The translations under genes were made by a program, and so were the position numbers. A stretch of DNA of 64,000 nucleotides from Haloglomus salinum (GTDB lineage Archaea; Halobacteriota; Halobacteria; Halobacteriales; Haloarculaceae): contig NZ_CP101153.1 of the NCBI RefSeq assembly GCF_024298825.1, positions 620,001 through 684,000 on the forward strand, in the 5' to 3' direction. The notes under the pieces were generated by a model. That model did not search any database and was not told the DNA's origin. It was given only the letters and a program-made list of their open reading frames with translations. Positions within the stretch are counted from its first letter, which is position 1, and the number at the start of each line of letters is the position of its first letter. This document shows, piece after piece, positions 1-45,324 of the stretch.

Positions 1-218
1 CGGAAGTAGGCTATCGGAAGCTCACAGACGAACTGCTCAGCCGAGTCGTGATTTGGATGCATGAACCAGATCCCCGAGACGACTCGAATGTCCGATTCTA
101 ATCCGGCAAGTGAAGCGCGGTCGTATAGCGGCGTCGAGTCGTATGCGGGCCACTCGACGTAGGGTTGTTGGGCGATTCGTCGAAAGACCGTGCGTTGTGA
201 CTCATAGGAGGTAGCCAC
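1..218 (-). CDS. Partial ORF of unknown function, cut by the window edge
   Basis: The minus strand is open from a GTG at 218 to the edge, about 72 codons, with the preceding in-frame stop at 243-245. The peptide is mixed polar with several Trp and Tyr and has no membrane segment. I do not recognise a family. A few sense codons (ILYQGRRA-type) lie between the stop and the GTG, so the real start is uncertain, and no clear promoter precedes it. It could be the 5' part of a gene continuing left or a remnant. Confidence 0.35.
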   Translation of the reverse strand, partial: MATSYESQRTVFRRIAQQPYVEWPAYDSTPLYDRASLAGLESDIRVVSGIWFMHPNHDSAEQFVCELPIAYF

Positions 219-334
219 TATAAGATACTGGCCGCGACGCGCTCAAGAATCCGTCTAACTGATCGGTGTTCGTCATATCCTGTGTATTGCTCAGCTGGCA
301 AGCTGATTTGATTCAGTTGTCTCTACGGAATCAG

Positions 335-754: not shown

Positions 755-956
755 CAGCGTCCAGGTAAGTTCCGTATTGCTTGGCCGCTTAAATCGAAAG
801 ACTACGGTCCACTCGCGCGCCGAGAGTGAGTGGAGGGCACGTCAGCCATGGGCTTCGTTATTGCCTCAGCAGTCTGTAGAGTTTTTGTCTCGTATCGTGG
901 CATGGTTTGCCACTCATCTGTTTCAATTGTTTAACAGGCTAACAATAGCGGGAGGG

Positions 957-966
957 TATAATAATT
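957..966 (+). promoter_or_regulatory. TATA-like element for the GIDE-domain gene
   Basis: The sequence TATAATAATT lies 31-40 bases before the ATG at 997 and is preceded by a purine-rich GGGAGGG stretch that could act as a BRE. The spacing implies a short leader or near-leaderless transcript, usual in haloarchaea. No Shine-Dalgarno sequence precedes the ATG. Confidence 0.45.
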
Positions 967-996
967 CGGTATGCGTGTTACGATGTAAACTACACG

Positions 997-1890
997 ATGG
1001 CCGGTATTGAAACACTCACAGAGTGGATCGCGCTGGCTGCTCGGGAATTCGGGTTCTGGGGAGGCGTGGTACTCCTTATCGTAGGTGCGATAGCCACGTA
1101 TCAAGGCTGGCAGCAACGGAAGTTGTACCGGATTGCTCTGGACACGCCGCTCAGTGACATTGGTGACATTACGGACCCAGGCCGCGTGCGTGTTCGCGGT
1201 GAGATCACGACGCAGGCACCGCGCGACCTATTCACCGCACCGGTCACCGGCGATGACGACACCGTCCTCGAAGCCTGGGAAATCAAAGAAACGTACGATA
1301 CACCAAAGCGCGAACGGACTGAGAAAGCGGCGTGGGGTGTCACTGCCGTCCCGTTCTACGTCACGGACGGGACAGGACAACTCCTCGTTGATATCGATGA
1401 TGTCGTTATGGGGGAATACGGATCGAGCGATAGTGAGTTCGTCTCCCCAGAAGCCCTGCATGCGGTGAACGGCGTCGCGTGCGACGGTGTCCACTGCGAA
1501 TTTGAAACATTCGACACCCAGGTCGAAACCGGCTACGACGATTCCCCACCGGCCCGCATCGCAGACTTCATCAGGCGGACTGGTGGTTTGTCCAGCGACC
1601 CGATGGTGACTGACATTGGAGAGTCCATTGTCGAGGATAGCAAACGCGCGTACCGTGGGCAAACGCTACAGGTCGGTGATGAAGTCAGTCTCATCGGACA
1701 CGTCGAACCGCAGCACGGTACCACTGCGGGACAAGCATTCGCACTACGGAACGACGGGACTGCGGACAACTGGTTATATGTATCCGAGCAGGAGTTCCGT
1801 AACCGGGCAACTGGCACCGGACTATTCGTATTCGCTGGCCTGATGGTCTGTTTCGCAGTCGTGTTGATTGCAGCCAGCCTCATCCTGTAG
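997..1890 (+). CDS. GIDE-domain-like membrane protein
   Basis: A 297-residue protein with one membrane segment near each end (about residues 20-38 and 274-296), the layout of MUL1/GIDE-like proteins. The central domain of about 200 residues resembles the GIDE/BAM domain; the match is from overall layout and the phrase VRVRGEI near residue 65, not from a diagnostic catalytic motif. There is no RING finger, so ubiquitin-ligase activity is not expected. Its job in archaea is unknown. It stands alone: the upstream gene is divergent and the downstream regulator points the other way. It sits in the low-GC left part of the window. Confidence 0.55.
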   Translation: MAGIETLTEWIALAAREFGFWGGVVLLIVGAIATYQGWQQRKLYRIALDTPLSDIGDITDPGRVRVRGEITTQAPRDLFTAPVTGDDDTVLEAWEIKETYDTPKRERTEKAAWGVTAVPFYVTDGTGQLLVDIDDVVMGEYGSSDSEFVSPEALHAVNGVACDGVHCEFETFDTQVETGYDDSPPARIADFIRRTGGLSSDPMVTDIGESIVEDSKRAYRGQTLQVGDEVSLIGHVEPQHGTTAGQAFALRNDGTADNWLYVSEQEFRNRATGTGLFVFAGLMVCFAVVLIAASLIL

Positions 1891-2154
1891 CGGGGTTCTG
1901 TGACATCGCCGCCGGTTCCGGAGCAAAAAGAAAGTCTCTCGTCACCGCAGAGCCGGGGCGGAAGTCCGGCACTCGGCCTGGTGCTCCGTTTCTTCGAGTT
2001 ATACAGCATTCGTTGCGGATTCAGTTCAGTCTCTTATCTCAACCCCTCGGGAAGAGGAGCTAACTCGGATGTGTTCAGGACATACCCTGAAATCCTCTTA
2101 TTGACATCACGCGCTCAAAAATAGTTGAACAGCCCTGACCCTACCTGTCTCAGA

Positions 2155-2823
2155 CTAGTTGAACATGTCTCCCTCGAAAACTGCTTGAACGAGGGCAGAT
2201 TCGGCCTTCCGAAGGTGTTGAGAAGCAGTGCTTGGTGCACAGTCGAGTGCTGCTGCGACCTCCTCAGCCGTCCCTTCGCGCGGGATGTCGTAGTACCCGA
2301 CAGCAAGTGCCTTCTCGACGGCTTCTATCTGGCGGTCTGTCAGCGATGCTGTGATGCGTTCGTCGGGCTGGTGGTAGTTGCCGACGCGTTCGACATCCAA
2401 CGGGAGTTGCTCGCTCGCATCTCCGATGGCTTGCTGTAGATCTTCGGGTTGACCGAGAAGACGGAAGACGAAACTGTAACCCTCTTCGACATCGACTGGC
2501 GGAATCATTGTGAGTGACTGTTCCGTGAAAACTCTCTGTAGCCAGATCTCATACTCATTCAGCTCACTAACCAAGTGTATTACTGCATAGTCGGCTTGGC
2601 GACGCAGGAATTCGTGGCTAAGTATCCCCTCAGTCACTGCGAGTCGTGAATCGAGCGCGGAGACATCACCCGTCACTGAACAGACGTAGGTTCGTGGACC
2701 GTCTTCACTAAAGCCCCCGTATCGAACGCGAACCGTGTCAGAAGCAGTGGTGTCGGCCAGTGCAGAGTGGATGGGTGTGTCCTGACTTTCTTCGAGACTG
2801 ACTCGAACACGGGCGAATTTCAT
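2155..2823 (-). CDS. HTH_10 (bat-type) transcriptional regulator A
   Basis: A 222-residue regulator with a C-terminal HTH_10 domain (about residues 160-215) in the order LTDRQ, GYYDIPRE, a helix-turn-helix with APSTASQHLRKAE. The N-terminal part is the usual poorly conserved haloarchaeal sensory module. I chose the ATG at 2823 (MKFARV) because the two related genes in this window start with MKHI; a GTG five codons upstream is possible. It is divergent from the alpha/beta hydrolase gene at 2904 with about 80 bases between starts, which makes that hydrolase a likely target. The ligand cannot be inferred. Confidence 0.82.
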   Translation of the reverse strand: MKFARVRVSLEESQDTPIHSALADTTASDTVRVRYGGFSEDGPRTYVCSVTGDVSALDSRLAVTEGILSHEFLRRQADYAVIHLVSELNEYEIWLQRVFTEQSLTMIPPVDVEEGYSFVFRLLGQPEDLQQAIGDASEQLPLDVERVGNYHQPDERITASLTDRQIEAVEKALAVGYYDIPREGTAEEVAAALDCAPSTASQHLRKAESALVQAVFEGDMFN

Positions 2824-2903
2824 ACGCGTTGCTTGCACCCTCGTCTTAAATCCTCAAAAATGTGGCCCAACTGCCCAATCTGTTCGTAGTCACAAACAAC
2901 ACT

Positions 2904-3809
2904 ATGGCGGTTCCAAACACTTCCCAGACGACTGATGCGTCACTGCTCGGTGAGCTCGGTGTCGAATCGACCTACCGAGACGCCAATGGAGTTCAGTTGC
3001 ATGTCGTGACCGCGGGCGACCCCGATAGGCCTCTGGTCGTCTTACTGCATGGGCATCCAGATTTCTGGTACGGGTGGCGTGACCAAATCCGAGCGCTCGC
3101 TGATGCCGGTTTCCGCGTGGTTATTCCGGATCAGCGGGGTGCTAACTTGAGCGAGGCACCGGACGGAACTGACCCGTATCGGATAAACGAGCTAGCAGCC
3201 GACGTTCGTGAACTCATTCACAGCGAGGGTCGGAACTCGGCTCACGTCGTCGGACATGACTTCGGGGCGTTCGTGGCCTGGAACGTCGCACTTCGCTATC
3301 CCTCCCTCGTCGACCGCCTCGGGATCTTCAACGTTCCTCACCCGACAGTGTACTGGGAGACAGTGACATCAAGTCTTCGGCAGATTGCCCGGAGCTGGTA
3401 CGTTTGGTTCTATCAGGTCCCACGGTTGCCTGAGTGGCTCCTCGAGCGCAACGACATGGACAACATGGTCGACACGCTTGAGATTAGCTCAAAGCCGGGC
3501 ACCTTTGACGAGGAAACGATTGAGCGCTACAAGGCGGCCTGGCAACACACCGGGATTCGACCGCGGATAAACTGGTATCGCGGCTTTCGGCGATCGGGAC
3601 GTCCATCGCAGGAGACCGTTTCGCAGCCGACGCTGATTTGTTGGGGCGAAGACGACGTCGGACTCGTTCCTTCGATGGCTGAAAAGAGTGTTGAAAGGTG
3701 TGCCAACGGTGAGATTCGGATGTTCTCCAACGCGTCCCACTGGGTGCATCTCGAGCGTGAGGAAGTGACTGAAGAGCTAATCCGTCACCTCGCAGGGAGT
3801 TCACCGTAA
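2904..3809 (+). CDS. Epoxide-hydrolase-like alpha/beta hydrolase
   Basis: A 301-residue alpha/beta hydrolase. Seen: HGHPDFW oxyanion-hole motif at 49-55, the GHDFGA nucleophile elbow with Asp119, an acid-turn segment ending WGEDD and a C-terminal catalytic His in NASHWVH. An Asp nucleophile followed by this HGxP motif is typical of soluble epoxide hydrolases and haloalkane dehalogenases rather than esterases. The cytoplasmic enzyme would open an epoxide or related bond; the substrate is unknown. The ATG at 2904 is preferred over a GTG at 2862 because the added residues resemble no family N-terminus. It is divergently paired with regulator A. A distant relative is at 48825-49802. Confidence 0.82.
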   Translation: MAVPNTSQTTDASLLGELGVESTYRDANGVQLHVVTAGDPDRPLVVLLHGHPDFWYGWRDQIRALADAGFRVVIPDQRGANLSEAPDGTDPYRINELAADVRELIHSEGRNSAHVVGHDFGAFVAWNVALRYPSLVDRLGIFNVPHPTVYWETVTSSLRQIARSWYVWFYQVPRLPEWLLERNDMDNMVDTLEISSKPGTFDEETIERYKAAWQHTGIRPRINWYRGFRRSGRPSQETVSQPTLICWGEDDVGLVPSMAEKSVERCANGEIRMFSNASHWVHLEREEVTEELIRHLAGSSP

Positions 3810-3959
3810 GAGCCCCTTGGCGTTCTACAAGCGTCCACTCAGGAGGGCTGTGCTTTTTAGAATCTAATCAGCGAGGATCATCCTGTTGGCTCCATCTATC
3901 CCCTCCTCGCTATATTTATCGGCTCTACAGCGAATGCTATTCAAGCACCGGTCAGTTCG

Positions 3960-4634
3960 TCACAGCGACGACGTAAATGCCGTGAGTCCGGCCCTGACGA
4001 GTTTTGCCTCGCCTTTCTGGAGATGGTCACTTGCCGTGTTCGGCGCACAGTCTAACTCCGCCGCGATATCGGTATGTGTCGCCTCACGCGGCGTATCGTA
4101 GTATCCCAGTTCGACGGCAACTTCGAGTGCCTCCTGTTGTCGGTCGCTCAGCGTTGTCGCCGGATTCACGTCGGCACTCGGAAACTGTTGAATCGCGTCA
4201 ATCTGGACGGAAACGCTCTCTGGGAGGTCATCAAGCGTCGCTTGCAGCGTCGCGGGGTCCCCGACGATGTGGCCGTGAATACGCCCATCTCTGTAGACGA
4301 GTGGGCGCCGAACCACCAGTCCAGTCCGGTCGATCGCGGTTGCGGATCCTCCGAATATCGGGAGCTCCGCGTCACGGAGTTCGATGAGTGCGTACGATAC
4401 CCGAGCGTCGGCAGCCGAGAGTTCGACCGATTCGACCCCCGCCGTCTCCTGGGCTAATTCAGCGAACCGGCCGCCATCGCCGGCGATTCCGTAGATGTGG
4501 GTCGACAGCTCCGAATCGCCGCGGTTCCAGTCGATAGCCCGTGCTTCGTCGTGAGCCTCTGCCTCCAGCAAGTACCGAAGGAACGGGGGGGCGCGGTCGA
4601 TATCTGGGCGGACCGTGATCCGGATGTGCTTCAT
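3960..4634 (-). CDS. HTH_10 (bat-type) transcriptional regulator B
   Basis: A 224-residue regulator with a C-terminal HTH_10 domain beginning LSDRQQEALE, then GYYDTPREATH and a recognition-helix region CAPNTASDHLQKGEAK. It is clearly paralogous to regulator C at 11051: both start MKHI, both have VVR[RK]PLVYRD in the middle and the same PREATH[TA][DE]IAAE segment. ATG 4634 is used; sixteen codons further upstream are open but do not fit the paralogue. It is divergent from the MDR gene at 4913, so it probably controls the MDR and amidohydrolase genes to its right. No strong operator repeat was found between them. Confidence 0.82.
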   Translation of the reverse strand: MKHIRITVRPDIDRAPPFLRYLLEAEAHDEARAIDWNRGDSELSTHIYGIAGDGGRFAELAQETAGVESVELSAADARVSYALIELRDAELPIFGGSATAIDRTGLVVRRPLVYRDGRIHGHIVGDPATLQATLDDLPESVSVQIDAIQQFPSADVNPATTLSDRQQEALEVAVELGYYDTPREATHTDIAAELDCAPNTASDHLQKGEAKLVRAGLTAFTSSL

Positions 4635-4912
4635 AGCTGTTGGCGATGGTCTGTATGACACTTCGCTACGGCTAAAATTCACCCCCTCTACTGGACGGTT
4701 CTGTAGATATGACTCCCCTGTTCACCGCCTAGAGCTATCTGCTGCTGTCCGTCTCTCATAAACCCCTGGAGTATCATCCACAGAACCGCTACTGGAGATG
4801 CCTCCCATGCGTTAGATGTGATGGCGACGAACCCAACCACAAACGACATGCGATGGCGCACCGCTCCGGCGAGTACCATCCCGGCAACCCACCAGTCCGA
4901 GGTGACTGATGC

Positions 4913-5872
4913 ATGAGAGCCGTTCGCTACCACGACTACGGCAGTCCAGACGTGCTCCAAGTCGATGAGGTCGACCGGCCGACGCCCGATCGCGACGAAG
5001 TCTTGGTCGAAATGCGGGCGGCCAGTGTCAATCGCGTGGACGTGATGTTCCGTTCCGGTCAGTACGGCGAGCTTCCGCTGCCGTCGATCCCCGGCGGTGA
5101 CGGTGCCGGGGTCGTTGCGGCGGTCGGCGAGGCCGTCGAGGCGTTCGAACCCGGTGACCGAGTCTTCGCATCAGGCATGGATCGTGCCGAGGGCGGCACC
5201 TTCACCGAGTACGCCACAATCCCGGCGGAGAAACTGGCCCATCTGCCAGAGGATGTGTCCTGGACCGCCGGGGGTGCCATCGGCAACGTCGGTGCCACTG
5301 CCTGGACGGCACTGGAGGAACTCGCCGGCATCCAGGCCGGTGACCGCGTCCTCATCCACGGCGGCTCCGGCGGTGTCGGCCACGCCGCAGTCCAGATTGC
5401 CGCACACAGCGGGGCGGAGGTCATCACGACGGCCGGGTCGGAGGAGGCTCGGGCCCAGCTCACTGATCTCGGAGCGTCTGTCGCGTTGGACTACGAGAGT
5501 GACTCGCTCGCTGAAGATATCCTCGCTGCGACCGACGGTGCCGGTGTCGACACGGTCCTCGACCATCGGCTTGAGGAGTATCTCGACCTCGATCTGTCGG
5601 TTGTCATCGAGGGCGGGACGATCATCAGCACGATGGGCCACATCCCCGAGACGAACGGTCGGCCACTCTACAACAAAGAAGTGACCATCCAGCCGCTCAA
5701 GATGGATAACCATCCGACTCGACGGCCGGTGCTGGAACGACTCGCCCGCTTGATGAAACAGGACGTCTTGACGCCCATCGTCGCCGACACGTACGCATTC
5801 GACGACACCGCTCGGGCCCACCAAGAGATACGTGCCGGCGGGTACGTGGGAAAACTCGTCGTAACCCCGTGA
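4913..5872 (+). CDS. Zinc-free MDR oxidoreductase (quinone reductase type)
   Basis: A 319-residue medium-chain dehydrogenase/reductase. The N-terminal GroES-like domain starts MRAVRYHDYGSPDVL; the nucleotide-binding loop is GGSGGVG at 150-156, the NADPH-preferring quinone oxidoreductase form. The catalytic and structural zinc cysteines of alcohol dehydrogenases are absent, which fits the QOR group that reduces quinones or enones. It is followed after 77 bases by the amidohydrolase at 5950 on the same strand. A frameshifted copy of its last 30 codons lies at 11741-11832, so a paralogue once stood beside regulator C. Substrate unknown. Confidence 0.85.
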   Translation: MRAVRYHDYGSPDVLQVDEVDRPTPDRDEVLVEMRAASVNRVDVMFRSGQYGELPLPSIPGGDGAGVVAAVGEAVEAFEPGDRVFASGMDRAEGGTFTEYATIPAEKLAHLPEDVSWTAGGAIGNVGATAWTALEELAGIQAGDRVLIHGGSGGVGHAAVQIAAHSGAEVITTAGSEEARAQLTDLGASVALDYESDSLAEDILAATDGAGVDTVLDHRLEEYLDLDLSVVIEGGTIISTMGHIPETNGRPLYNKEVTIQPLKMDNHPTRRPVLERLARLMKQDVLTPIVADTYAFDDTARAHQEIRAGGYVGKLVVTP

Positions 5873-5949
5873 CCATCGAATAATGATACCGCTGACCGTA
5901 TGATTAGTTGGGGTTCCGCCACTCAGTAGATTACAGGATCGAGCTACCC

Positions 5950-7407
5950 ATGGATTCCCTCGTGCTTCACAACGGAACAATCGTTACCGTCGATGAAGAC
6001 AACCGTATCATCAAAAATGGGACCGTTCGAGTCGGCAGCGACGGTCGGATTACCGCTGTCGAACCGTCGTCCGCAGACACAACACCGGCAGACGCAGATC
6101 AGGTGATCGATGTCGACGGTAAGGTCGTGATCCCGGGCTTGATCGATGCCCATCGCCATACTGATTTTACCCTCGTTCAGGGGCTGTTTAGCGAACTGCA
6201 GGGGGGTGAGCTCCTGAGAGAGGCAATCGCCCTGTATCATCGTGCAGAGGCCGACCTCGACGAGACATTTTTCGAGGCCGCCTGGCGACTCGCGTCGCTC
6301 CGGCAACTCTCCCACGGCGTGACCACGGTCAACGCGATGGACTTCACTCCCGAACTGGGGGCCGAGACGCTGGGCGAGGCGGGCCTCCGGGGCGTCGTTG
6401 GCCCCGAGTTGGCCGACCTCATCAAACCAGCCGGTCCAGAGACACAGCTTGCGGAGGCACGGGAATTCATCGAGGAGTACCACGGGGCCTACGAAGGACG
6501 GATTGCGGCGAGTATCGCCCCCGGCGGTGAGGCTGGCTGTTCCGGAGAACTCTGGGAGGGCATCGCTGACCTGCGGACGGAGTATCCGGACCTTCGGCTC
6601 CATACGCACATATACGATTCACCGGAGGCCGACACGATGGCGGCCGGAAGCGGCGCGGACGACCCACTCGCGCTTCTGGAGGCCCATGACCTGTTGGACG
6701 ACCGGACGCTGCTTACACACGTGCTGCACGCAGGACGTGAGGAGGCTCGGCGGATCGCTGAATCGGGCGCACACGTCCTCCACTGTCCAACGATCTATAG
6801 CTATTTCCGAGCCGGCGAACAGGCGTGGTTCCCGCTCCCCGCGTTACAGGAGGACGGCGTCAACGTCGCCATTGGGCTTGACGACCCGTTCTGGTTCGAC
6901 TCTTGGGATCTCCTCCAAGAGGCCAAACACGCCCGGTTGCTGGCGAACTACGAGTACGGTGCCCAGCAGTGGACCTCGTACGAGCTGCTCAAGACAGTGA
7001 CGATCAACGGGGCACGCGCGCTCGGCCTAGCCGATGAGGTCGGAAGCCTCGAAGTCGGCAAGCGCGCTGACATCGTCGTTCTGGATCCGAAGCCGGCACG
7101 ACATCTGCCGTTCAGCAACGTCCCATCCGTGGTGATGAACACGCTGACCGGCGGAGACGTTACGACAGTGGTCGTCGACGGCGAGATATTGATGCACGAG
7201 GGGACGGTCGAATCGATGGATCCGGAGTCAGTCATCACGGCTGCCGAAGACGCCCGTGATCGACTGCAAGACACGACCGGGTGGGCCACCTCGCTCGCTG
7301 GCAGTTCTTCGCCTGAGACATCGATCGCTCGCCGGATTGCCGCTCGGCCGACCCTGCGCGTGCTCAAACAGTACGGGCAGGGATTTCTGTCCGAACACCT
7401 GCCGTAA
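5950..7407 (+). CDS. ATZ/TRZ-like amidohydrolase 1
   Basis: A 485-residue metal-dependent amidohydrolase with the composite beta-sandwich plus TIM-barrel layout: N-terminal HNGTIVTVD, PGLIDAHRH with metal ligands His68 and His70, LHTH later in the barrel, THVLH for the next His and GLDDP for the catalytic Asp. The C-terminal sandwich has VGKRADIVVLD, and a further 55 residues after about 430 are shared only with the two paralogues here. Such enzymes hydrolyse C-N or C-Cl bonds in heterocycles, guanidines or hydantoin-like compounds. ATG 5950 is chosen; the open frame upstream has no family sequence. It may share a transcript with the MDR gene. Confidence 0.87.
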   Translation: MDSLVLHNGTIVTVDEDNRIIKNGTVRVGSDGRITAVEPSSADTTPADADQVIDVDGKVVIPGLIDAHRHTDFTLVQGLFSELQGGELLREAIALYHRAEADLDETFFEAAWRLASLRQLSHGVTTVNAMDFTPELGAETLGEAGLRGVVGPELADLIKPAGPETQLAEAREFIEEYHGAYEGRIAASIAPGGEAGCSGELWEGIADLRTEYPDLRLHTHIYDSPEADTMAAGSGADDPLALLEAHDLLDDRTLLTHVLHAGREEARRIAESGAHVLHCPTIYSYFRAGEQAWFPLPALQEDGVNVAIGLDDPFWFDSWDLLQEAKHARLLANYEYGAQQWTSYELLKTVTINGARALGLADEVGSLEVGKRADIVVLDPKPARHLPFSNVPSVVMNTLTGGDVTTVVVDGEILMHEGTVESMDPESVITAAEDARDRLQDTTGWATSLAGSSSPETSIARRIAARPTLRVLKQYGQGFLSEHLP

Positions 7408-7564
7408 GGACAGGCGTATCTCCCTTGGAAAATGTCCGGCCCTGTGACCACATCTGTAGTGAGACACCCATCTCAACTATCCTCAATCACAGGCTACCCT
7501 TCGAACAGTAGAACGGAGCAAACAGTACCTGCCAGCCGACGTGAACGAGATAACCGCAACCCGA

Positions 7565-9025
7565 TCACAGTTTCGCGCGCAGAGTCGGACCGACCCCACG
7601 GAGCGCCTGCCGTGCGTAGCGTGCAATGACGGCTGGTGATACTCGCCGCCAGAGACTCGATTCCGGTGGCCGAGACGAGCCAAGAGTCGCATCCCATCCT
7701 GTCGCTTGGAGAAAGCGATCGAACTCCTGGCGAGCAGTTGTTAATACGCTTGACACATCCATCGACCGAACCTCCCCGTCATGAATAAGTATCTCACCGT
7801 CGACAACGACGGTTTCGACGTCGCCGGCAGTGACTGTGTTGACGATCGCCGCAGGGAGGTTGTAGAGTGGCTGGTGGGTCGGTGAATCCACGTCCAAGAG
7901 GAGTACGTCTGCTCGTTTGCCGACTTCGAGACTGCCGACTCGGTCGTCAAGTCCGAGCGTCCGCGCTCCGTCGATTGTGAGCATGCGGAGGAGATCACGC
8001 GAGTGGTACTGGTGGGCGCCGTATTCGTAGTTTGCGAGGAGGCGGGCGCGGCTCGCTTCTCGGAATAGATCCCACGACCCGAACCATCCCGGGTCGTCCA
8101 GTCCCAGTCCAATTGGCACGCCGGCGTCTCGCAACGATTCAACGGGGTACCAATCGCGTTGTTCGGCCCGGTAGTAACTAAAGATACTCGCACAGTGGAC
8201 TACGCTCGCACCGGTATCAGCGATGCGGCGCACGTCGTCGGTGTCGGCGTGGGTGCAGTGTGCGATGACGGTCCGGTCGTCGAGGAGCCCGAGGTCGTCC
8301 AGCGTACCCAGCCGATCATTACCGTGGGTGCCGCGAGCGACGACAGCACCGTAGGGCACGTTGAACGCGTGAGTATGCAGCAGCAACTCGGGATACTCCT
8401 CACGGAGGACGGCCGTCGCTTCCCAGGCTTCCCGCGAACAGGCCCCGGTCCCGTCAGGGGCGAGACTCGCCTGAACCCGCCCGTCGTAGCTCCCGTGATA
8501 CTCATCGATGAAGGCCCGTATTTCGGCGACTTGGTCGGAGACCGACGCCGGCATCACGAGGTCGCTGAAATCGAGCCCGATGATGGCCCGGAGGCCGCTC
8601 TCACCGACGGCCCGAGCGCCGATGGCGGGGTAGCCGTCCATCGCGTTGACCGTCGTCACGCCGTGAGTAAGATGCCGGAGACAGGCCAGCCGCCAACTCG
8701 CCTCAAAGAACGACCGACCGAGCGACTCAGCGTCGGTGTGGTAGAGCGCGATGGCTTCGGCGAGTGCGTCGAACGGATCCAAGTCTGCGAACAGCCCGCC
8801 GACGAGACAAAAATCCGTGTGTCGGTGGGCATCGACAAGTCCAGGTATCGCCACGGTGCGGGTGCCATCGATGACTGTCTCGGCCGGCAGCTCGTGGTCA
8901 TCGTCTTCGGCCGGCCGCACGGCGACCAGTTCGCCGTCCTCAATGACGATAGTCCCGTTCTCAATAATCCGGTTCCGGCCGTCGACGGGCACGATCGTCG
9001 TCCCGTGGATGACCGTGTCGTGCAT
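7565..9025 (-). CDS. ATZ/TRZ-like amidohydrolase 2
   Basis: A 486-residue paralogue of the enzyme at 5950, closer to it than to the one at 9481. It has DAHRHTDF (His67 and His69), the shared ALYH..A.....FFEA.WRLA.LR.L.HGVTTVNAMD block, HTHAFN, IAHCTHAD and GLDDPGW, and VGKRADVLLLD near the C-terminus. The first metal motif is His-Arg-His, as in paralogue 1, where most relatives have His-Thr-His or His-Val-His. It is the last gene of a three-gene minus-strand run (10950 to 7565) with gaps of 20 and 15 bases and converges on paralogue 1 with 157 bases between stops. Confidence 0.87.
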   Translation of the reverse strand: MHDTVIHGTTIVPVDGRNRIIENGTIVIEDGELVAVRPAEDDDHELPAETVIDGTRTVAIPGLVDAHRHTDFCLVGGLFADLDPFDALAEAIALYHTDAESLGRSFFEASWRLACLRHLTHGVTTVNAMDGYPAIGARAVGESGLRAIIGLDFSDLVMPASVSDQVAEIRAFIDEYHGSYDGRVQASLAPDGTGACSREAWEATAVLREEYPELLLHTHAFNVPYGAVVARGTHGNDRLGTLDDLGLLDDRTVIAHCTHADTDDVRRIADTGASVVHCASIFSYYRAEQRDWYPVESLRDAGVPIGLGLDDPGWFGSWDLFREASRARLLANYEYGAHQYHSRDLLRMLTIDGARTLGLDDRVGSLEVGKRADVLLLDVDSPTHQPLYNLPAAIVNTVTAGDVETVVVDGEILIHDGEVRSMDVSSVLTTARQEFDRFLQATGWDATLGSSRPPESSLWRRVSPAVIARYARQALRGVGPTLRAKL

Positions 9026-9040
9026 CTGTTACGAAATGTA

Positions 9041-9460
9041 TTACTGTCGGGTCCGTTCTCTGAGCATCCCGACCGCTGTTGCGAATACGGTTCCACACAG
9101 CATCCCTACGGCACGCTTCCGTGGAATTTTCCCCGTCAGACCTGCGTGAGCTACCATGACCGTGTCAGTCGAATCTACGATGAGCGATATCCGTTCCCAC
9201 CGGGTTCGCTGTGCGGGTGGGGCAATCACTCGACCGATACCCAATGCGATTGCTCGGATACTGAAGTACCGGATCGCAACCTCGTTTGGACCATCTCCCT
9301 CGGGTGAGTAGATACCGTACCACTTCCCGAGGAGCCGGGGTTTCAGCAATCCGATACTGCCGAAGACGATTCTGAACCACGGCAAACTCCGCTCCAACCA
9401 CCGAACGGATGTACTGTCTGTTCGACTTCCGTGTTCGTTCTCCGTATCGAATCCGGTCAT
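9041..9460 (-). CDS. Small membrane-associated protein, DUF4267-like
   Basis: A 139-residue protein between two amidohydrolase genes in the same run. It has a hydrophobic WFRIVFGSIGLLKPRLLGKW segment near residue 27, an AIRYFSIRAIALGIG segment and a C-terminal AVGMLCGTVFATAVGML segment. This order (surface-seeking helix, Pro-rich turn, R-[GS]-x-R-x-[LI]-x-LG) is reminiscent of DUF4267-type small membrane proteins, but the match is from memory and loose. Spacing of 15-20 bases to both neighbours suggests co-transcription and a role linked to uptake or handling of the amidohydrolase substrate, which is inference. Confidence 0.6.
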   Translation of the reverse strand: MTGFDTENEHGSRTDSTSVRWLERSLPWFRIVFGSIGLLKPRLLGKWYGIYSPEGDGPNEVAIRYFSIRAIALGIGRVIAPPAQRTRWERISLIVDSTDTVMVAHAGLTGKIPRKRAVGMLCGTVFATAVGMLRERTRQ

Positions 9461-9480
9461 ATCACTCGGTTGGAATCAAT

Positions 9481-10950
9481 TCACAATTTATCCTTGGCTG
9501 ACTGAAGGACGGCTTTCGCAAACAAGCGGGTGGGCCCGCGCTTTGGTGCGTCCCGGAACGTCGAGACCGTGCTGGGGGTCTCAGTTCCATCCATCTCGAA
9601 AGACCACTCGGTCTCGGACTCGAGCTGCTCCATCGCCGCTTCGACACGGTTAATGACAGCGTCCGGATCCATCGTCTTCACCACACCGTCACGCATGAGG
9701 ACGTTCCCATCGACGATTACTGTCTCCACGTCGGCCCGGGTCGCTTGGTTAGCCACGTGGGCGAAGACGTTGTTACCCGGGGCGAACTTCGGGGAAGCGA
9801 AGTTGAGGACGATCATATCTGCTCGTTTCCCTGCCTCGATACTGCCGATCTCGTCACCGACGTTGAGTGCCTGGGCCCCCTCACGGGTGAGCATCCGGAC
9901 CAGCTCTTCGGAGGTAAACTGGCCACCACCCCATTCAGTTCTCGCCCGGAGTCGAGCCTGCCTGGCTTCCCCCAACAGGTCGTAGGAGTCGTGCCAGTAG
10001 TGGTCGTCGATGCCCAGTCCCACGTCGATGCCGGCGTCCCGGATATCGGGGACTGGCGTCCACTGCATGTCTGGATCGGCGTTCCAGTAACTGAAGATAG
10101 ATGGGCAGTGTGCGACCGAGGCACCTGCTTCTGCCGTCCGTTGGATATCTGCTTCGTCCGCGTTCCGGAAGTGGGCCGCAATCAGTCTCTCGTCCAGTAT
10201 ATCCGTCTCCTCCAGCAGGTCCAGCGAGTCGTCGGCTCCGTTCGACCGGGCGATCGTGTTACTCAGATCGAGTTCGAGCAGGTGCGTGTGGACGTTGATA
10301 TCTGGGTATTCGTCGGCGAACTCCGAGGCTTGCTCCCACAATTCGCGTGTGCACGCCCAGTCGCAATGGGGGCAGATCGTCGCCTGAATCCGCCCATCGT
10401 AGGACTCGTGGTAGTTTTCGATGAACTCGCGTGTGCGCTCGAACTGTTCGTCGACGGGAGTGTCCCAGAAGAGATCGCTTATCCAGTTCCCGAAGAAGCC
10501 GCGAAGACCGGCTTCACCGAAGCTCTCGGCACAAATACTGGGCCGAGTGTCCATCGTATTGACTGTCGTGATTCCACTTTTGAGAAAATTCAGTGCGGCG
10601 AGCTCGGCTCCAGCCTCGGCGAGATAATCGAGTTCTTCCTTGCCCATGCCCGTGAGGAGTGGCGCATTATATCCCCAGAGTTCGAAGTCGCCAAGGTCGC
10701 TGTGACCCGCCATCGTCGGGGACAGTTCGACATGGGTGTGGGTATTGACGAGGCCTGGCATGACCAGTTTCCCCGTTCCATCGATGACGACCTCAGCATC
10801 CAACTTCCCGTCTTCAGGCTTCGACGGACGCACGTCAATGATTTCCCCGTCGTTGACGAGGACGGTCCCGTGCTCGTAGAGGTCCTGGTCGTCGTTGACA
10901 GTCATCACGAGTGCATCGTGAATGACCAAGTCGGGATAGGTCGCCGGCAT
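9481..10950 (-). CDS. ATZ/TRZ-like amidohydrolase 3
   Basis: A 489-residue amidohydrolase, the most divergent of the three. Metal ligands are the canonical His71-Thr-His73 in GLVNTHTHVE; later motifs are HTHLLE, AAHFRNADEAD, HCPSIFSYWNAD and GLGIDDHYWHDS. AGKRADMIVLN marks the return to the beta-sandwich, and a C-terminal extension of about 55 residues matches the paralogues in position. First gene of the minus-strand run with the small membrane gene and amidohydrolase 2; its ATG at 10950 is 100 bases from the divergent regulator C. Family enzymes deaminate or dechlorinate ring or guanidino compounds; the substrate is not predictable. Confidence 0.87.
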   Translation of the reverse strand: MPATYPDLVIHDALVMTVNDDQDLYEHGTVLVNDGEIIDVRPSKPEDGKLDAEVVIDGTGKLVMPGLVNTHTHVELSPTMAGHSDLGDFELWGYNAPLLTGMGKEELDYLAEAGAELAALNFLKSGITTVNTMDTRPSICAESFGEAGLRGFFGNWISDLFWDTPVDEQFERTREFIENYHESYDGRIQATICPHCDWACTRELWEQASEFADEYPDINVHTHLLELDLSNTIARSNGADDSLDLLEETDILDERLIAAHFRNADEADIQRTAEAGASVAHCPSIFSYWNADPDMQWTPVPDIRDAGIDVGLGIDDHYWHDSYDLLGEARQARLRARTEWGGGQFTSEELVRMLTREGAQALNVGDEIGSIEAGKRADMIVLNFASPKFAPGNNVFAHVANQATRADVETVIVDGNVLMRDGVVKTMDPDAVINRVEAAMEQLESETEWSFEMDGTETPSTVSTFRDAPKRGPTRLFAKAVLQSAKDKL

Positions 10951-11050
10951 ATTTCATACAACAGGGGGAAGAACTGAGACGCTTTTGTCGAGGATGGTCT
11001 ATTGATTTAAGTCGGCGGTGAAAGAGTTTGGCGACAGGGAGCGAGTGACG
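10951..11050. promoter_or_regulatory. Divergent promoter region between amidohydrolase 3 and regulator C
   Basis: These 100 bases separate two divergent starts. On the plus strand an AT-rich ATTGATTTAAG around 11002-11012 lies about 40 bases before the ATG at 11051 and could be the TATA element for the regulator. No convincing palindrome was seen. A shared region of this size would allow regulator C to control both itself and the amidohydrolase run. Confidence 0.4.
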
Positions 11051-11743
11051 ATGAAACACATTCAACTCGAAACTCGAATCGACTCTACGTTTCTCCCGGA
11101 ACTATACTCGGCTGCTACCGAATCATCCGAAATTAGAGAGCTCCGCGTCATCGACTGGAATTTGGCAGCCGATGACAGAGGGACATTGCTTTACGCTATC
11201 GATGGGGATAGTGTCGTCTTCGATGAAGGTGCCAGCAAAACCGAGGGTATCGACAATTGTAGTTTTGCGTGCACAGATGAAACGATTTCGTACGCACTCG
11301 TCAGCGCTCGGCCTGCCGCAATGCCGTTTCTCAGTACGTTTATCGCAGTGATTGCGCGTGCGGGGTTGGTTGTACGAAAACCCCTCGTGTACCGAGACAA
11401 GCGATCCTACGCTCGCGTAGTCGGTGAACCTGCGCCGCTACAAGAAGCGATCGACGACACCCCCACGGGTATCAAGGTCGAAATCCAGCAGATCGGCCAG
11501 TATCCGTCAAGAGCGGAGAACCCATGGATGGGGTTGAGCGACCGACAGCAGGAGACAATCAAAACGGCGCTACAGCTGGGATACTACAAACAACCACGGG
11601 AGGCGACACACGCCGAAATCGCTGCTGAGATGGGATGTGCGCCGAACACTGTGACGATCCATCTTCAAAGAGGAGAGGCAAAGATCATCCAATCTGTGGA
11701 GAAGCGGCTACGAGATACCGCTCGGTCGGAGCCGTCCATTTAA
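11051..11743 (+). CDS. HTH_10 (bat-type) transcriptional regulator C
   Basis: A 230-residue paralogue of regulator B, starting MKHIQLETR, with a C-terminal HTH_10 domain: LSDRQQETIK, GYYKQPREATHAEIAAE and CAPNTVTIHLQRGEAK. The N-terminal sensory half is only partly alike, so ligands may differ. It is divergent from amidohydrolase 3 and is followed directly by the remnant of an MDR gene related to the one regulator B faces. The context says a regulator that originally governed an MDR plus amidohydrolase set. ATG 11051 matches the start of regulator B; the open codons before it do not. Confidence 0.82.
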   Translation: MKHIQLETRIDSTFLPELYSAATESSEIRELRVIDWNLAADDRGTLLYAIDGDSVVFDEGASKTEGIDNCSFACTDETISYALVSARPAAMPFLSTFIAVIARAGLVVRKPLVYRDKRSYARVVGEPAPLQEAIDDTPTGIKVEIQQIGQYPSRAENPWMGLSDRQQETIKTALQLGYYKQPREATHAEIAAEMGCAPNTVTIHLQRGEAKIIQSVEKRLRDTARSEPSI

Positions 11744-11832
11744 CCCCTATCGTCGCCGGCGCCTTTGCGTTCGATGACGCCACTCGGGTCCACCAAGAGA
11801 TACGTACCGGCAGGTACGTGGGGGAAACTCGT
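11741..11832 (+). pseudogene. 3' remnant of an MDR (quinone reductase type) gene
   Basis: From LTPIVAG to YVG the reading frame matches the C-terminus of the MDR gene at 4913-5872: both have a F[AD]FDD[AT][TA]R[VA]HQEIR[TA]G[RG]YVG pattern. By hand count about 66 of 80 bases agree. Just before the expected stop the run GTGGGGGAAACTCG has one more base than GTGGGAAAACTCG in the intact gene, which shifts the frame so it runs on to a stop at about 11860. Nothing of the first 290 codons remains. The remnant starts at the stop codon of regulator C. Confidence 0.8.
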
Positions 11833-12202
11833 TGGTTGGGAGATAGATCTCGAAGGAAGTGATTCCCCGAGCCACCTGCGTACTGCCCGCGACCTCCCGA
11901 AACGCGGGCTAGCACACCTCCAGGCTCGTCTCGGTCTGCAACACGTCACAGATAGATTGTAAGTTTTCACTTCCGGGAAAGGTATTCGCACAAGCGACAC
12001 TCGGCTGCGGCGGATTGGAAGTGCGGAATCTAGAGGCTCGGAGAGAGGAATTGAATGCACTCATGAAATAGCCGCCACAGCCATGTGCATTGAGACGGTC
12101 AGTCTCAACTATTCTGCTGGGTGATTCGATATCGCGCTGAGCGGTTTATCTCATATATCTCCGGAACACGTCCGCAACACAGCAACCGTCCGAGACACCG
12201 TT
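11833..12202. other. Intergenic region with the probable glycerate kinase promoter
   Basis: No supported gene. The minus-strand open frame here is antisense to the MDR remnant and has no family sequence. At 12143-12160 GGTTTATCTCATATATC gives two TATA-like elements 43-60 bases before the ATG at 12203. Base composition changes from the AT-richer left part to the GC-rich right part in this stretch, so it is the likely border of the island. Confidence 0.45.
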
Positions 12203-40148: not shown

Positions 40149-40760
40149 CTACAGCTCGCCCTTCGTACTCGGCGTGTCACCCGCCCGGCGCTCGTCGACC
40201 CGCGTCGCGTCGTCCAGCGCGCGGGCGAGCGTCTTGAACAGCGCCTCGACCTCGTGGTGGGCGTTCTCGCCGGTGACGCCGGCGTGGAGCGTGAGCCCGG
40301 CGTTCATCGCGAGCGAGCGGGCGAAGTGGGCGGCCATGTCGCTGGTGAACTCGCCGACCGACGGCTGTGAGAACGCGCCGTCGAAGTCGAAGTAGGGGCG
40401 CCCGGAGACATCCACGACCACGTCCGCGACGGCCTCGTCCAGCGGGACCCGGCGGTCGGCATAGCGGACGATGCCGCGTTTCTCGCCGAGCGCCGCGTCG
40501 AACGCCTGCCCGATGGCGATGGCGACATCCTCGACGGTGTGGTGGTCGTCGATGTGGAGGTCGCCGTCGCACTGGACCGTGAGGTCGAACAGGCCGTGCT
40601 TGGCGAAGGCGGTGAGCATGTGGTCGAAGAAGCCGACGCCGGTGTCGACGGTGGCCTCACCGTCGCCGTCGAGCGCCAGTGTGACCTCGATGTCGGTCTC
40701 GGCGGTCTCCCGGGTCACGGCGGCCTCGCGGACGCCACCCTCGGTCGTCTCGTCGCTCAT
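40149..40760 (-). CDS. hisB: Imidazoleglycerol-phosphate dehydratase HisB
   Basis: A 203-residue HisB that dehydrates imidazole glycerol phosphate to imidazole acetol phosphate. Seen: GVGFFDHML near 40, [18 protein letters not shown] near 66, and [18 protein letters not shown] near 160, which hold the two Mn-binding His-rich motifs. No phosphatase domain, as expected. ATG 40760 (MSDETTEG) is chosen over an upstream in-frame GTG. It is alone; hisA is about 4 kb away with a large regulator gene between. Confidence 0.92.
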
Positions 40761-41053
40761 GGTCGCGGCTCCGGGGCCCACCGGCAAGACGGTTCCCCCT
40801 CGGTGTGGGTGCGCCGCCCGGCGCGGCGGTACTTAAACTCAGTATGTGACGTAATCTACCCGCACCCGGAATCACCACTGCGGACTATCGTGTCTCCGCG
40901 TCGGCAGTGCATCCGAGTCGGTTCGGCTCCATCTTCGACTCGCCACTGGCGGCCGCGTCGACACGGCACCGTCTGGCGCGCGTGCCGCTACCGGGGGGTG
41001 GGGGTGCGCTCGCCGGGGAGAGCTTTTGTGAGTGGCCGAAGAACGAGCGACAA

Positions 41054-44000
41054 ATGGACGACGGGGGGGAGCCCGTACTCGATGTTGTCAGGCGGCGCTG
41101 GCCGGTGTTCGAGCGACTGCTGGACGGTCCCTCGTACAAGCGCGACCTCGTCGCGTCGGTCGACCGGTCACGGTCGACCGTCGACCGGGCCGTCCGGGAG
41201 CTGGAGGGGGAGGGACTGGTCGAGCGGACGGACGGCGGCTACGTCGCGACCGTGGCCGGGCGACTCGCCGCCGAGGAGTACCGGGCGGCGACGGACTCGC
41301 TCGCGGCGGTCGAGGCGGCGGTCGCCGCGCTGGAGCCGTTGCCGTACGACGCCCCGCTGTCGGGCGCGGCGCTGGCCGACGCGACGGTCGGCCTCGCCGG
41401 GGCGGATGCCGACGCGGCGGCGCTCGCCGACCGGTTCCTCGACCGCCTCGCGAGCGCGGACAGGGTGGCGGCCGCCGTCGCGACGGCCGCGGACGAGTCG
41501 TTCGCGGCCGAGGCCGTCGCGGCGGCCGGAGCGTCCGTGTTGCTGCCACCGGACGCCGACACGGGGCCGGACGGGCGGCCGGCGACGACCGAGCCACCGT
41601 TCTCGCTGCTCCGGACGCCGACGGCCGTCCTGGTGCTGATCCACGCCGACGACGGACGCCCGCACGCGCTGGTCGAGGCGACCGGCGACGACGCGCTCGC
41701 GTGGGCCGGGGAGCGGTTCGCCGAACTCGACCCGGAGCGCGCCGCCGCGACGCCCCCGGGACACGGCGACGGGCCGGAGTCGACACGGCTCGCGTCGGAG
41801 GGGTTCGAGCGCCTCGGCGATGCCGCGTTCGACCCGGCGAACGCCCGCGACCTCGTGCTGGCGCTCCGGACGGGCCACGAGTTCGCGGACGTGGCCGCCG
41901 GGCACGCGCTGCCGCGGGAGCGACCCGACGACGGCGATGCCGGCCGCGAGCGCCTCGACAACTGCCTCCTGGCACGCCTGACCGACGGCCGCGACGTGGC
42001 GCTCCTGGGGCCGCCGGGGAGCGGCAAGAGCACCGTCTGCCGGCAGGTCGCACACCGCTGGGACGAGGCCGACCACGGCGCGGTGTGGTACCGCCGGAGC
42101 GGCCGGGGGCGACAGTTCACCGCGCCGGAGGCACTCGCAGCCGCGGCCCGGCGCGACCCCGGACACACGCTGGTCGTCGTCGAGGATGCCGTCCGGTCGG
42201 GCCGGGCCGTGTTCGAGACGATGCGTGCCCTCCGGGACGACCCGACGGTCTCGGTACTCGTGGACGCGCGGACGGCCGAGTGGGGCGACCCGCCGGGCGA
42301 ACCGCTGTCCCCCGCGGTCAGAGCCGACCGGGACGAGGCGGTCGAGGTGTTCCGGATGCCACCTCTCGACGAGCGCGAGCGCGAGCGGTTCGTCGCCCAC
42401 GTCGCCGCCGACCGCGACCGGTCGGCCGAGAAACTGGCGTCGGCGGTCGAGGCGGTCGCGCGCTGCTCCGACGACCACGCGGCCGGTGCACCGTCGTCGG
42501 TGCTGGCGTTCCTCCACTGCCTCGCGACGGCCGCGGGCGTCGGGGAGGATGTCCCGAGCGCGCTGCAGGCGGACGCGGAGACGACGCTGGCGCGACTCCG
42601 CGAGGGCGAACCGGCGGCGTACGACCTCGGCGTGCTGGCGAACCTGCTGAACGCGGCGGGGCTGGCCGTGGAGCCGGCGTCCCTCTACGCGCTGGTCGCA
42701 CCGCCGGCCGACTACGACGCGACGGCCATCGACGCCGCCATCCAGACCCTCCACGGGCGGGTGCTGTTCGGGCCATCGCCGCTGGACTGTCAGCTCCCCC
42801 ACGAGGAGTGGTCGGTCGCGTTCCTCGACGCGCTGGTCGAGACGGAGCCGGCGCCGGCGGCCCAGCGCCGGGTCGGCCGCGTCTGCTCGGCGCTCTGGTC
42901 GCTGGCCGACGACCCCGAAGGCCGCGAGGCGGTTCGAGACGCGCTGGGCGCGGAGGCAGCGGTCCTCGAACGGGTCGCCGCCGACCCGACCGGGTGGGCC
43001 GACGAGACGGTCGACGCGCTGTTCACGCTCGTCGAACGCCAGCCGGGGCTGGCGCCGCTGCTGGGCGAGAGCGACCACTCGGCGCTCACCCTGCCCGACG
43101 CCTGTTCGCCGGGGGCGGCCGTCCGAACCGTCTCGAGGCGATGTCAGGCCCGCTTCGACCGAGGGGACTACGAGGCGCTCGCCCGCGAGGCGGCGGCGCT
43201 GTACCACCGGGCGGGCGTCCTCGACGCCCCCGAACGGACGCGGTTCCGGTCCGAGGCGTTCTTCCACCGGGCCTGGGCCGCCATCAGGACCGGCGCGTTC
43301 GACGACGCCGACCGGTACGCCGAGTGGGCGCTGGCGCTGGCCGAGACGGTCGACGATGACGAGCGGGCACGGGAGGCGCTCGGCGCCCGCGGCGTCGCGG
43401 CGTGGCTCGCCGGAGACCTGGACGACGCCGAACGCCACCTCACCGCTGCGGAGTCACGGGCCGACGCCGAAGGGGACCCGGCCGGGGCGGCCTCCATCCA
43501 GAACAACCTCGGCATCGTCCACTACGAGCGGGGTGAGTTCGACGCCGCACTGGACCGGTTCGAGCGGAGCCGAGCGCTCCGCGAACGGGCGGGCGCCCGG
43601 GTCGCGCTCGTCGACTCGCTGGTCAACCTCGGCGTCATCGAGCGTGACTGGGGACGGCCGGCGGCGGCCATCGAACGGTTCGAGACAGCGGTGGACCTCG
43701 CGCGCGACGTCGGGGCTCGCGACTATCTCGCCCACGCGTTGCGTGCGCTCGGGAACACGCTCGCCGACGACGGCCGCGACGCGGTAGCTACCGAGCGCCT
43801 CGAAGAAGCCCTCGCCCTCGCCCGTGATGCCGGCAACCGGGAGAACGTCGCCCACTGCCTCCGGGGGCTGGGCGTGGCCGCTCGGGAACGGGGCGACCTC
43901 GACCGGGCCGAGCGCCACCTGACCGAGAGCCGCGAGACCGCCGACGACGTCGATGCCGACCGCGCGCTCGCGCTCGCGCTCCGGGAGCTGGGCACGCTGG

Positions 44001-44248
44001 CCCGTGAGCGCGGCGCCAGCGAGGTGGCACTCGACCGACTGGACGCGTGTCTCGAGACGTTCGACCCGGAGACGCGGAACGCCGAGACGGCACGTGCACA
44101 CCGCGAGCGCGGCGAGGCGCTGCTGGCGCTCGGCGACGACGCGGCGGCGCGTGCGGCCTTCGAGACCGCACGGACCCAGTACCGGGCACTCGGCGCTGAC
44201 CACCGGGTTGCGGAGTGCGAGAGTCGGATGGCGGGTGTCGCGGACTGA
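41054..44248 (+). CDS. Winged-helix / STAND-type ATPase / TPR regulator
   Basis: A 1064-residue multidomain protein. Residues about 5-75 are a winged helix with PSYKRDLVASVDRSRSTVDR then LEGEGLVERTDGGY; this start and the following 100-240 region resemble haloarchaeal winged-helix regulators (HVO_A0261/FilR1 type). A P-loop GPPGSGKST at 319-327 and Walker B LVVVEDA near 376 belong to a STAND-like NTPase up to about 620. The C-terminal half has eight 40-residue TPRs (for example NNLGIVHYERGEFDAALDRF). Such proteins couple ligand sensing by TPR to ATP-driven assembly. ATG 41054; the GC content is very high, like the host's own genes. Confidence 0.82.
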   Translation: MDDGGEPVLDVVRRRWPVFERLLDGPSYKRDLVASVDRSRSTVDRAVRELEGEGLVERTDGGYVATVAGRLAAEEYRAATDSLAAVEAAVAALEPLPYDAPLSGAALADATVGLAGADADAAALADRFLDRLASADRVAAAVATAADESFAAEAVAAAGASVLLPPDADTGPDGRPATTEPPFSLLRTPTAVLVLIHADDGRPHALVEATGDDALAWAGERFAELDPERAAATPPGHGDGPESTRLASEGFERLGDAAFDPANARDLVLALRTGHEFADVAAGHALPRERPDDGDAGRERLDNCLLARLTDGRDVALLGPPGSGKSTVCRQVAHRWDEADHGAVWYRRSGRGRQFTAPEALAAAARRDPGHTLVVVEDAVRSGRAVFETMRALRDDPTVSVLVDARTAEWGDPPGEPLSPAVRADRDEAVEVFRMPPLDERERERFVAHVAADRDRSAEKLASAVEAVARCSDDHAAGAPSSVLAFLHCLATAAGVGEDVPSALQADAETTLARLREGEPAAYDLGVLANLLNAAGLAVEPASLYALVAPPADYDATAIDAAIQTLHGRVLFGPSPLDCQLPHEEWSVAFLDALVETEPAPAAQRRVGRVCSALWSLADDPEGREAVRDALGAEAAVLERVAADPTGWADETVDALFTLVERQPGLAPLLGESDHSALTLPDACSPGAAVRTVSRRCQARFDRGDYEALAREAAALYHRAGVLDAPERTRFRSEAFFHRAWAAIRTGAFDDADRYAEWALALAETVDDDERAREALGARGVAAWLAGDLDDAERHLTAAESRADAEGDPAGAASIQNNLGIVHYERGEFDAALDRFERSRALRERAGARVALVDSLVNLGVIERDWGRPAAAIERFETAVDLARDVGARDYLAHALRALGNTLADDGRDAVATERLEEALALARDAGNRENVAHCLRGLGVAARERGDLDRAERHLTESRETADDVDADRALALALRELGTLARERGASEVALDRLDACLETFDPETRNAETARAHRERGEALLALGDDAAARAAFETARTQYRALGADHRVAECESRMAGVAD

Positions 44249-44413: not shown

Positions 44414-44569
44414 GTGCCGCTCATCCAGTCAGTGGCGGATACGGTCGTCGCGACGGCTCCACAGATGGCGGCCGCCTCCCCGACGGGAGCGGCCGTCTCC
44501 GGTGCCGCCGCCTACGCGCTGGTTCGGCTGGCCGGTCGGCGGGAGTACCGACCCACGGACGGAGCCTGA
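44414..44569 (+). CDS. Small protein of 51 residues, leaderless
   Basis: From GTG 44414 to TGA 44567 the frame encodes 51 residues: an amphipathic N-terminus (MPLIQSVADTVVATAPQM), an Ala/Gly-rich hydrophobic stretch (AAVSGAAAYALVRLAG) and a basic-polar end (RREYRPTDGA). One weak membrane helix is possible. Support comes from the well-placed TATA element rather than from homology. It sits in the gap between the STAND regulator and hisA and could be a target or partner of either; that is inference. Confidence 0.5.
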   Translation: MPLIQSVADTVVATAPQMAAASPTGAAVSGAAAYALVRLAGRREYRPTDGA

Positions 44570-44601: not shown

Positions 44602-45324
44602 TCACTCGACGGCCGCGCTCGCCTCGGCGAGCGTGAACGCGCCCTCGTAGAGCGCCGTGCCGACGACGACCGCCGCCGCCCCCGCGTCGTGAACGGTCCG
44701 GACGTCCTCGACGGTCGCGACGCCGCCGCTGGCGATGACCGGAGCGTCCACGGCCTCGACGACGCGGCGGACCTCCTCGCCGCGGACACCCTCCATCTGT
44801 CCCTCGACGTCCACGTCGGTGAACAGGATGCCCGCCGCGCCGGCATCGACGAACCGCGCGGCGGCCTCGGCCGGGTCGAGACCCGTCCCCTCCGTCCAGC
44901 CGGAGACGACGACCTCCCCGCCCCTGCTGTCGAGGCTGACGAGGACGCCCTCCGGGAAGCGGTCGGTGATGGTGGAGACGACATCCGGGTTCTCGACGGC
45001 CGCCGTGCCGAGGATGACCCGGTCGACGCCGCCCTCGAGCAGCGAGAAGGCGTCGGCAGCGGTCCGGATGCCGCCGCCGACCTGCACGTCCGCGTTCGTG
45101 GCTGCGACCACGCGCTCGATGGCGCCCGCGTTCGCGCGCTCACCCTCGAACGCCCCGTCGAGGTCGACGAGGTGGAGCGTTCGAGCCCCCTCGTCCTCCC
45201 AGTCCCCCGCGGCCTCGACCGGGTCGCCGTAGGTGCGCCCGGTTCCACGCTCGCCGCCCACGAGCTGGACGACCTGCCCGTCCTGTACGTCCACCGCCGG
45301 CACGACCTCGAACGAGTCGAACAT
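44602..45324 (-). CDS. hisA: Phosphoribosylformimino-5-aminoimidazole carboxamide ribotide isomerase HisA
   Basis: A 240-residue TIM-barrel isomerase of histidine synthesis (ProFAR to PRFAR). Catalytic Asp12 in VPAVDVQDGQVVQL and Asp132 in SLDSRGGE; phosphate-binding VGGGIRT near 82 and IASGGV near 200, plus LHLVDLDGA. ATG 45324 begins MFDSFEVVPAVD as in haloarchaeal HisA; the upstream frame is shadow. Alone here except for the small leaderless gene on the other strand. Confidence 0.93.
   Translation of the reverse strand: MFDSFEVVPAVDVQDGQVVQLVGGERGTGRTYGDPVEAAGDWEDEGARTLHLVDLDGAFEGERANAGAIERVVAATNADVQVGGGIRTAADAFSLLEGGVDRVILGTAAVENPDVVSTITDRFPEGVLVSLDSRGGEVVVSGWTEGTGLDPAEAAARFVDAGAAGILFTDVDVEGQMEGVRGEEVRRVVEAVDAPVIASGGVATVEDVRTVHDAGAAAVVVGTALYEGAFTLAEASAAVE

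Follow-up and report, generated by a model that had tools for sequence, protein, structure and literature searches.

A predicted DNA-binding STAND protein with a TPR array encoded between hisB and hisA in the haloarchaeon Haloglomus salinum

Between hisB and hisA of Haloglomus salinum, in a window of 64,000 nucleotides (the whole stretch of DNA analysed here, from contig NZ_CP101153.1), lies a gene for a large protein in which an earlier note had recognized a winged helix of the haloarchaeal regulator type, a P-loop NTPase, and an array of TPRs. The question raised by this locus is which function such a protein serves, that of a signal-controlled transcription switch or that of a defence regulator, both of which had been proposed. 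In our judgement, it is probably a single-protein, signal-gated (inducer-gated) transcription factor of the STAND type, which most likely switches genes on or off when its sensor meets a signal. ATP-driven transcription switches consisting of a single protein have been studied mainly with the bacterial proteins MalT and AfsR and with one archaeal structure, PH0952. The gene and its parts are located as follows:

41054..44248, plus strand: whole gene (1064 amino acids plus stop), encoding winged helix-turn-helix (wHTH), FilR1-like domain, nSTAND5 NTPase with predicted winged-helix region (WHD), and TPRs
41054..41305, plus strand: winged helix HVO_A0261_N, residues 1-84 (Pfam and alignment)
41306..41773, plus strand: FilR1-like middle domain, residues 85-240 (Pfam below cut-off, relatives, and alignment)
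41789..41917, plus strand: family-specific pre-P-loop segment, residues 246-288, consensus EGF..L...YF......P...WR.G..L.EV..GYA..R (alignment)
41966..42373, plus strand: nSTAND5 NTPase, residues about 305-440 (Pfam and alignment)
42374..43123, plus strand: residues 441-690, comprising a helical part, a winged-helix-like part, and the arm, and including the motif H583..W586 (homology and motif)
43256..44245, plus strand: eight TPRs of 40 residues each, followed by a capping helix, residues 735-1064 (Pfam and AlphaFold2)

The open reading frame stands as it was first drawn, with 1064 codons and a stop codon, and is oriented opposite to both flanking genes, hisB (IGPD, 40149-40760) and hisA (44602-45324), which are located on the minus strand. 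The ATG at 41054 is taken as start codon, since the in-frame peptide upstream of it is dissimilar in the related genome G048; a GTG at 40907 was rejected as upstream start because the extension is not conserved there. A scan of the locus for bacterial promoters and terminators gave no match, as expected in an archaeon. The divergent intergenic region between hisB and the STAND gene contains a candidate promoter region, a TATA-like block of 27 bases, GTACTTAAACTCAGTATGTGACGTAAT (40829-40855, strand not assigned), which is kept in the three genomes that retain the STAND gene and missing in the sister species G049, where the gene was lost. This block is a possible promoter, operator, or autoregulatory site of the STAND gene and may also serve hisB.

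A further open reading frame of 51 amino acids (VPLIQSVADTVV...; 44414-44569, plus strand) has a TTTATATA box 25-35 bp upstream. Both are kept in four Haloglomus genomes (92, 72, and 61%) including G049, and the reading frame is weakly matched in hisA/hisB-linked DNA of G085 and G051. It is predicted to encode a leaderless small protein and is regarded as independent of the STAND gene because it persists in G049, which lost the latter; for the same reason it was discarded as a partner of the STAND protein and as the adjacent effector which the earlier note had hinted at. Elsewhere in the window, positions 1-12000 have a lower G+C content (0.53-0.64 vs about 0.70) and include, as judged by eye, three long amidohydrolase-like reading frames as well as others resembling HTH_10-type regulators; this part is possibly acquired DNA.

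The wHTH, the NTPase, and the TPRs are all matched by Pfam above the curated cut-offs, as the first reading of the domains had it, and this plan was incomplete in overlooking the FilR1-like domain at residues ~85-240. The N-terminal DNA-binding domain of the haloarchaeal regulator type is supported by a match to HVO_A0261_N at residues 12-84 (E 1.9e-16, 60.2 bits vs a cut-off of 35). Residues 39-50 of the winged helix form the recognition-helix motif SRSTVDRAVREL, and R15, S39, R40, T42, R45, and L50 are invariant among 20 aligned relatives with 24-94% identity. The following domain is diverged: FilR1_middle matches the H. salinum protein at residues 179-224 with 22.9-25.5 bits (cut-off 27), but 72 of 93 relatives with E values of ≤ 0.01, and in Haloglomus the domain is shortened, partly lost, and fast-evolving. 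Residues 1-240 are therefore best described as a predicted whole regulator of the HVO_A0261/FilR1 type and not as a winged helix alone. Separate stand-alone regulators of this type exist in the same genome (e.g. L003), and in FilR1, an archaeal domain of a similar, ArsR-related type has been shown to bind promoters (PMC3991700).

The nSTAND_NTPase5 core together with the winged-helix-like region spans residues 245-690. Its assignment to the STAND class, which the earlier note had already made, is borne out at the sequence level by the Pfam match (PF25199, residues 315-410, E 3.5e-11, 43.6-46.9 bits vs a cut-off of 34) and by the conservation of the nucleotide-site residues. The NTPase motifs are a Walker A sequence (GPPGSGKST, 319-327), a Walker B sequence (LVVVEDA, 373-379), and a VDAR sequence including R406; G319 and K325 of Walker A and E377 of Walker B are each present in 91 of 91 aligned cores. 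A missing sensor arginine or winged helix had been named as a finding that would speak against a STAND core. R406, which occupies the sensor position, where the strand following Walker B ends, is conserved in 85 of the 91 cores, and residues 441-690 contain a hairpin-like stretch and an HExWS motif, of which H583 is found in 87 and W586 in all 91; by sequence the arginine is thus present and a winged helix is predicted, the fold of the WHD being without a confident model. In PH0952, a histidine of the winged helix touches the phosphates of ADP (PMC6468293), and H583 is likely the counterpart of this residue. On the grounds of homology and this motif, residues 441-690 are a predicted STAND WHD. 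A GxP motif, as in the helical domain of STAND proteins, was found in 24 of 91 cores, not above chance (20.3 in shuffled sequences), AlphaFold2 runs with two sequences gave no confident model of the core (mean pLDDT 49 and 37), and a search of the PDB with a profile of 72 haloarchaeal cores yielded, among the best 60 of 469 matches, only short P-loop matches and not the chain of PH0952.

TPRs extend from about residue 740 to the C-terminus with scores above the curated cut-offs (TPR_12, E 3.3e-31), and TPR_MalT matches residues 739-887 over its cut-off. In the AlphaFold2 models of the two sequences, confident helices are confined to the TPR array (residues about 770-1064). The number of eight 40-residue TPRs, counted before from the sequence, is right, because the predicted helices between residues 735 and 1046 form eight hairpins of ~40 residues, followed by a capping helix at 1049-1063. 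The protein thus has both a C-terminal repeat sensor, the eight TPRs, and a terminal effector domain, the N-terminal wHTH.

Relatives of the protein (E ≤ 1e-20) occur in 39 of 146 genomes of the taxonomic family to which the window belongs, and PF25199 is present in 66 of 391 haloarchaeal genomes, about one sixth of the sample; the number of matches per genome reaches six. Outside the class, nSTAND5 was found in 21 genomes of the phylum, of which a single one fits the core profile for the greater part of its length, and the family with this core appears to be essentially haloarchaeal in the sample examined. A set of 100 loci of 20 kb yielded 93 relatives that share a core recognizable by the pre-P-loop segment. 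The wHTH-FilR1 module is present in 72 of them, six of which have a second wHTH in front; in a single protein (L056 of G119, 8025-12131), a protein kinase replaces this module in a fusion with nSTAND5 and TPRs; and the remaining 20 have other N-termini, mostly of ~190 residues, helical, and with a hydrophobic stretch at the start. The latter type (L065, L069, L066, L068, L077, L079, and others), with a hydrophobic, Gly-rich start such as MIESIGINLVATGLACGGGIGL, has no Pfam name in its ~190-residue domain, and a membrane-acting output is possible. About 400 extra N-terminal amino acids in L053, L060, and L127 are without Pfam match and were set aside as probably an open frame without a gene. 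In a tree of the NTPases, built by a quick method and weak in its deep branches, the wHTH types cluster together, the doubled-wHTH forms are one clade (support 99), and the kinase protein is nested inside the wHTH types (support 86-94), which indicates one or more exchanges of the output domain.

For the analysis of selection, dN/dS was computed by comparison with the copies between hisB and hisA in G047 (94% identical) and G048 (73%); the STAND sequence of Haloglomus halophilum ZY41 (L006) is identical to that of G047. The values were 0.14-0.21 for the wHTH, 0.16-0.24 for the NTPase, and 0.15-0.26 for the TPRs, and ~0.6 in Haloglomus for the FilR1-like part, the least constrained region. Since purifying selection acts on the gene, the reading frame is not a product of chance, and the low values imply that DNA binding, the nucleotide switch, and the sensor are maintained, the FilR1-like part being loose within the genus. 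The order hisB-STAND-hisA is confined to G000, G047, and G048. The sister species G049 retains hisB and hisA and has between them a scar of the last STAND codons (L139, about 2196-2280; 17 of 23 residues identical, E 1e-5), and the STAND gene was therefore deleted there. A recent insertion between hisB and hisA, considered as an alternative, was rejected on this evidence of loss, and the location is old within the genus. In a second STAND relative of G049 (L057, about 7213-7400), part of the wHTH can be read only in a different frame; the recognition helix seems to be lost, and both copies in this draft genome may be damaged. In view of its patchy occurrence and its loss in one sister species, the gene does not encode a core regulator.

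The early reading as a signal-controlled transcription switch gains support from the domain content and order, the conserved nucleotide and switch residues, the invariant recognition helix, the purifying selection, and the wide occurrence on chromosomes, where some lineages keep the gene at a fixed place. Counted against it are the lack of a clear GxP motif, the loosened FilR1-like part, the patchiness of the gene, and the core without a confident model. By analogy with PH0952, MalT, and AfsR, from which autoinhibition, ADP/ATP exchange, and oligomerization are inferred, the resting protein would be a monomer with ADP clamped between the NTPase and the winged-helix region and held in the closed form by the TPR array and the arm. 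Binding of an inducer, whether small molecule or protein partner, on the TPR side would open the protein and permit exchange of ADP for ATP, whereupon protomers would associate via their NTPases. This association would gather several wHTH and FilR1-like modules and alter their grip on promoter DNA.

A different function would be that of an antiviral or conflict sensor, in which the TPRs detect an invader protein and the oligomer reprograms host transcription or coats invader DNA via the N-terminus. The STAND-TPR plan, the patchy distribution with up to six matches in a genome, the plasmid location of some relatives (few in the plasmid records, all with <60% identity), and the exchange of N-terminal domains, as in immune STANDs, for a kinase or a helical domain are consistent with this function, but the surroundings of the gene give it no support. 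The neighbours of STAND relatives are mostly housekeeping genes, among which several lineages are stably placed: about 11 loci from several genera are situated beside a radical-SAM-like gene and purQ/purS, and four beside a NikR-like gene. Matches to defence models were no more common among immediate neighbours than among genes >4.5 kb away at the same loci, PADLOC assigned no specific defence model to the protein itself, only generic TPR, HTH, and P-loop matches, and no relative was found in viral contigs and phage records. Together with the slow evolution of the TPRs in Haloglomus, these results leave the role in defence that had been suggested for the protein without backing and make it rather unlikely.

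We also consider it unlikely that a single nSTAND5-TPR switch serves haloarchaea as a common base for interchangeable outputs (a regulator, single or doubled, a protein kinase, and a helical domain that possibly acts on membranes) and that its DNA-binding form senses infection or stress and responds by oligomerizing on promoter DNA; if true, archaea would have in it a counterpart of immune NLRs that acts on transcription. Very unlikely is a protein in which the NTPase and the TPRs mainly serve as scaffold, with ligand sensing of the FilR1 type controlling DNA binding and ATP only stabilizing the fold: the N-terminal 240 residues match a stand-alone regulator in its entirety, but it is their FilR1-like part which is least constrained in the genus, whereas the NTPase and the TPRs are under strong purifying selection and the residues of the nucleotide site hardly vary within the family. 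Local control of hisB and hisA by the protein, as suggested by the site between hisB and hisA, the divergent orientation to hisB, and the shared conserved TATA-like block, is highly improbable, as this placement is confined to three genomes, G049 still has hisB and hisA without the STAND gene, and relatives elsewhere adjoin other genes.

The transcription factor of the STAND type, which we prefer, can be compared with several known systems. The order of domains had been called the reverse of that in MalT-type regulators, and this is correct with respect to MalT of Escherichia coli, which shares the STAND switch and the TPR sensor but has a C-terminal DNA-binding domain (PMC6468293) and a MalT-type NTPase; in the haloarchaeal protein, the TPRs reach residue 1063 and the wHTH is N-terminal. 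The order is not unusual, however, and not new, because both PH0952 of Pyrococcus horikoshii (Archaea) and AfsR (Bacteria) have an N-terminal DNA-binding domain followed by NOD, arm, and TPRs (PMC6468293, PMC10936776). PH0952 (PDB 6MFV; PMC6468293), the structure of which was solved after removal of the effector domain for crystallization, is likewise an archaeal, predicted transcription factor of the order wHTH-NOD-arm-TPR; it differs in having no described FilR1-like domain and in its APAF1/MalT-like NOD with a GxP motif, in contrast to the nSTAND5 core without a clear GxP motif. AfsR, a large SARP of Streptomyces, is similar in that a winged-helix DNA-binding domain and a second domain precede NOD, arm, and TPRs, and ATP lifts the inhibition of its N-terminal DNA-binding part by NOD and TPRs (PMC10936776), but this bacterial protein has an OmpR-type wHTH and a bacterial activation domain in place of the HVO_A0261 and FilR1-like domains. 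The stand-alone HVO_A0261/FilR1 regulators correspond to the N-terminal 240 residues as a whole, but have no NTPase and TPRs, in place of which FilR1 itself has a receiver domain. The NLR-like immune STANDs of bacteria share the order effector, NTPase, repeat sensor, and the N-terminal domains are exchangeable in the wider haloarchaeal family too, but the N-terminus of the latter is mostly a regulator, and no defence context was found. No publication on a haloarchaeal nSTAND5-TPR family was found in the literature searched, and one may exist elsewhere. The haloarchaeal DNA-binding STAND group is widespread and apparently undescribed and varies a known design, placing an ordinary whole regulator, partly in cultured species, under a STAND-TPR switch, and its natural variants with a doubled wHTH or a kinase could reveal how one STAND switch drives different outputs. 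Apparently new, within the papers searched, are the insertion of FilR1, the use of an nSTAND5 core, the doubling of the wHTH, and the exchange for a kinase, and the haloarchaeal spread is a further difference from the known N-terminal DNA-binding STAND-TPR proteins.
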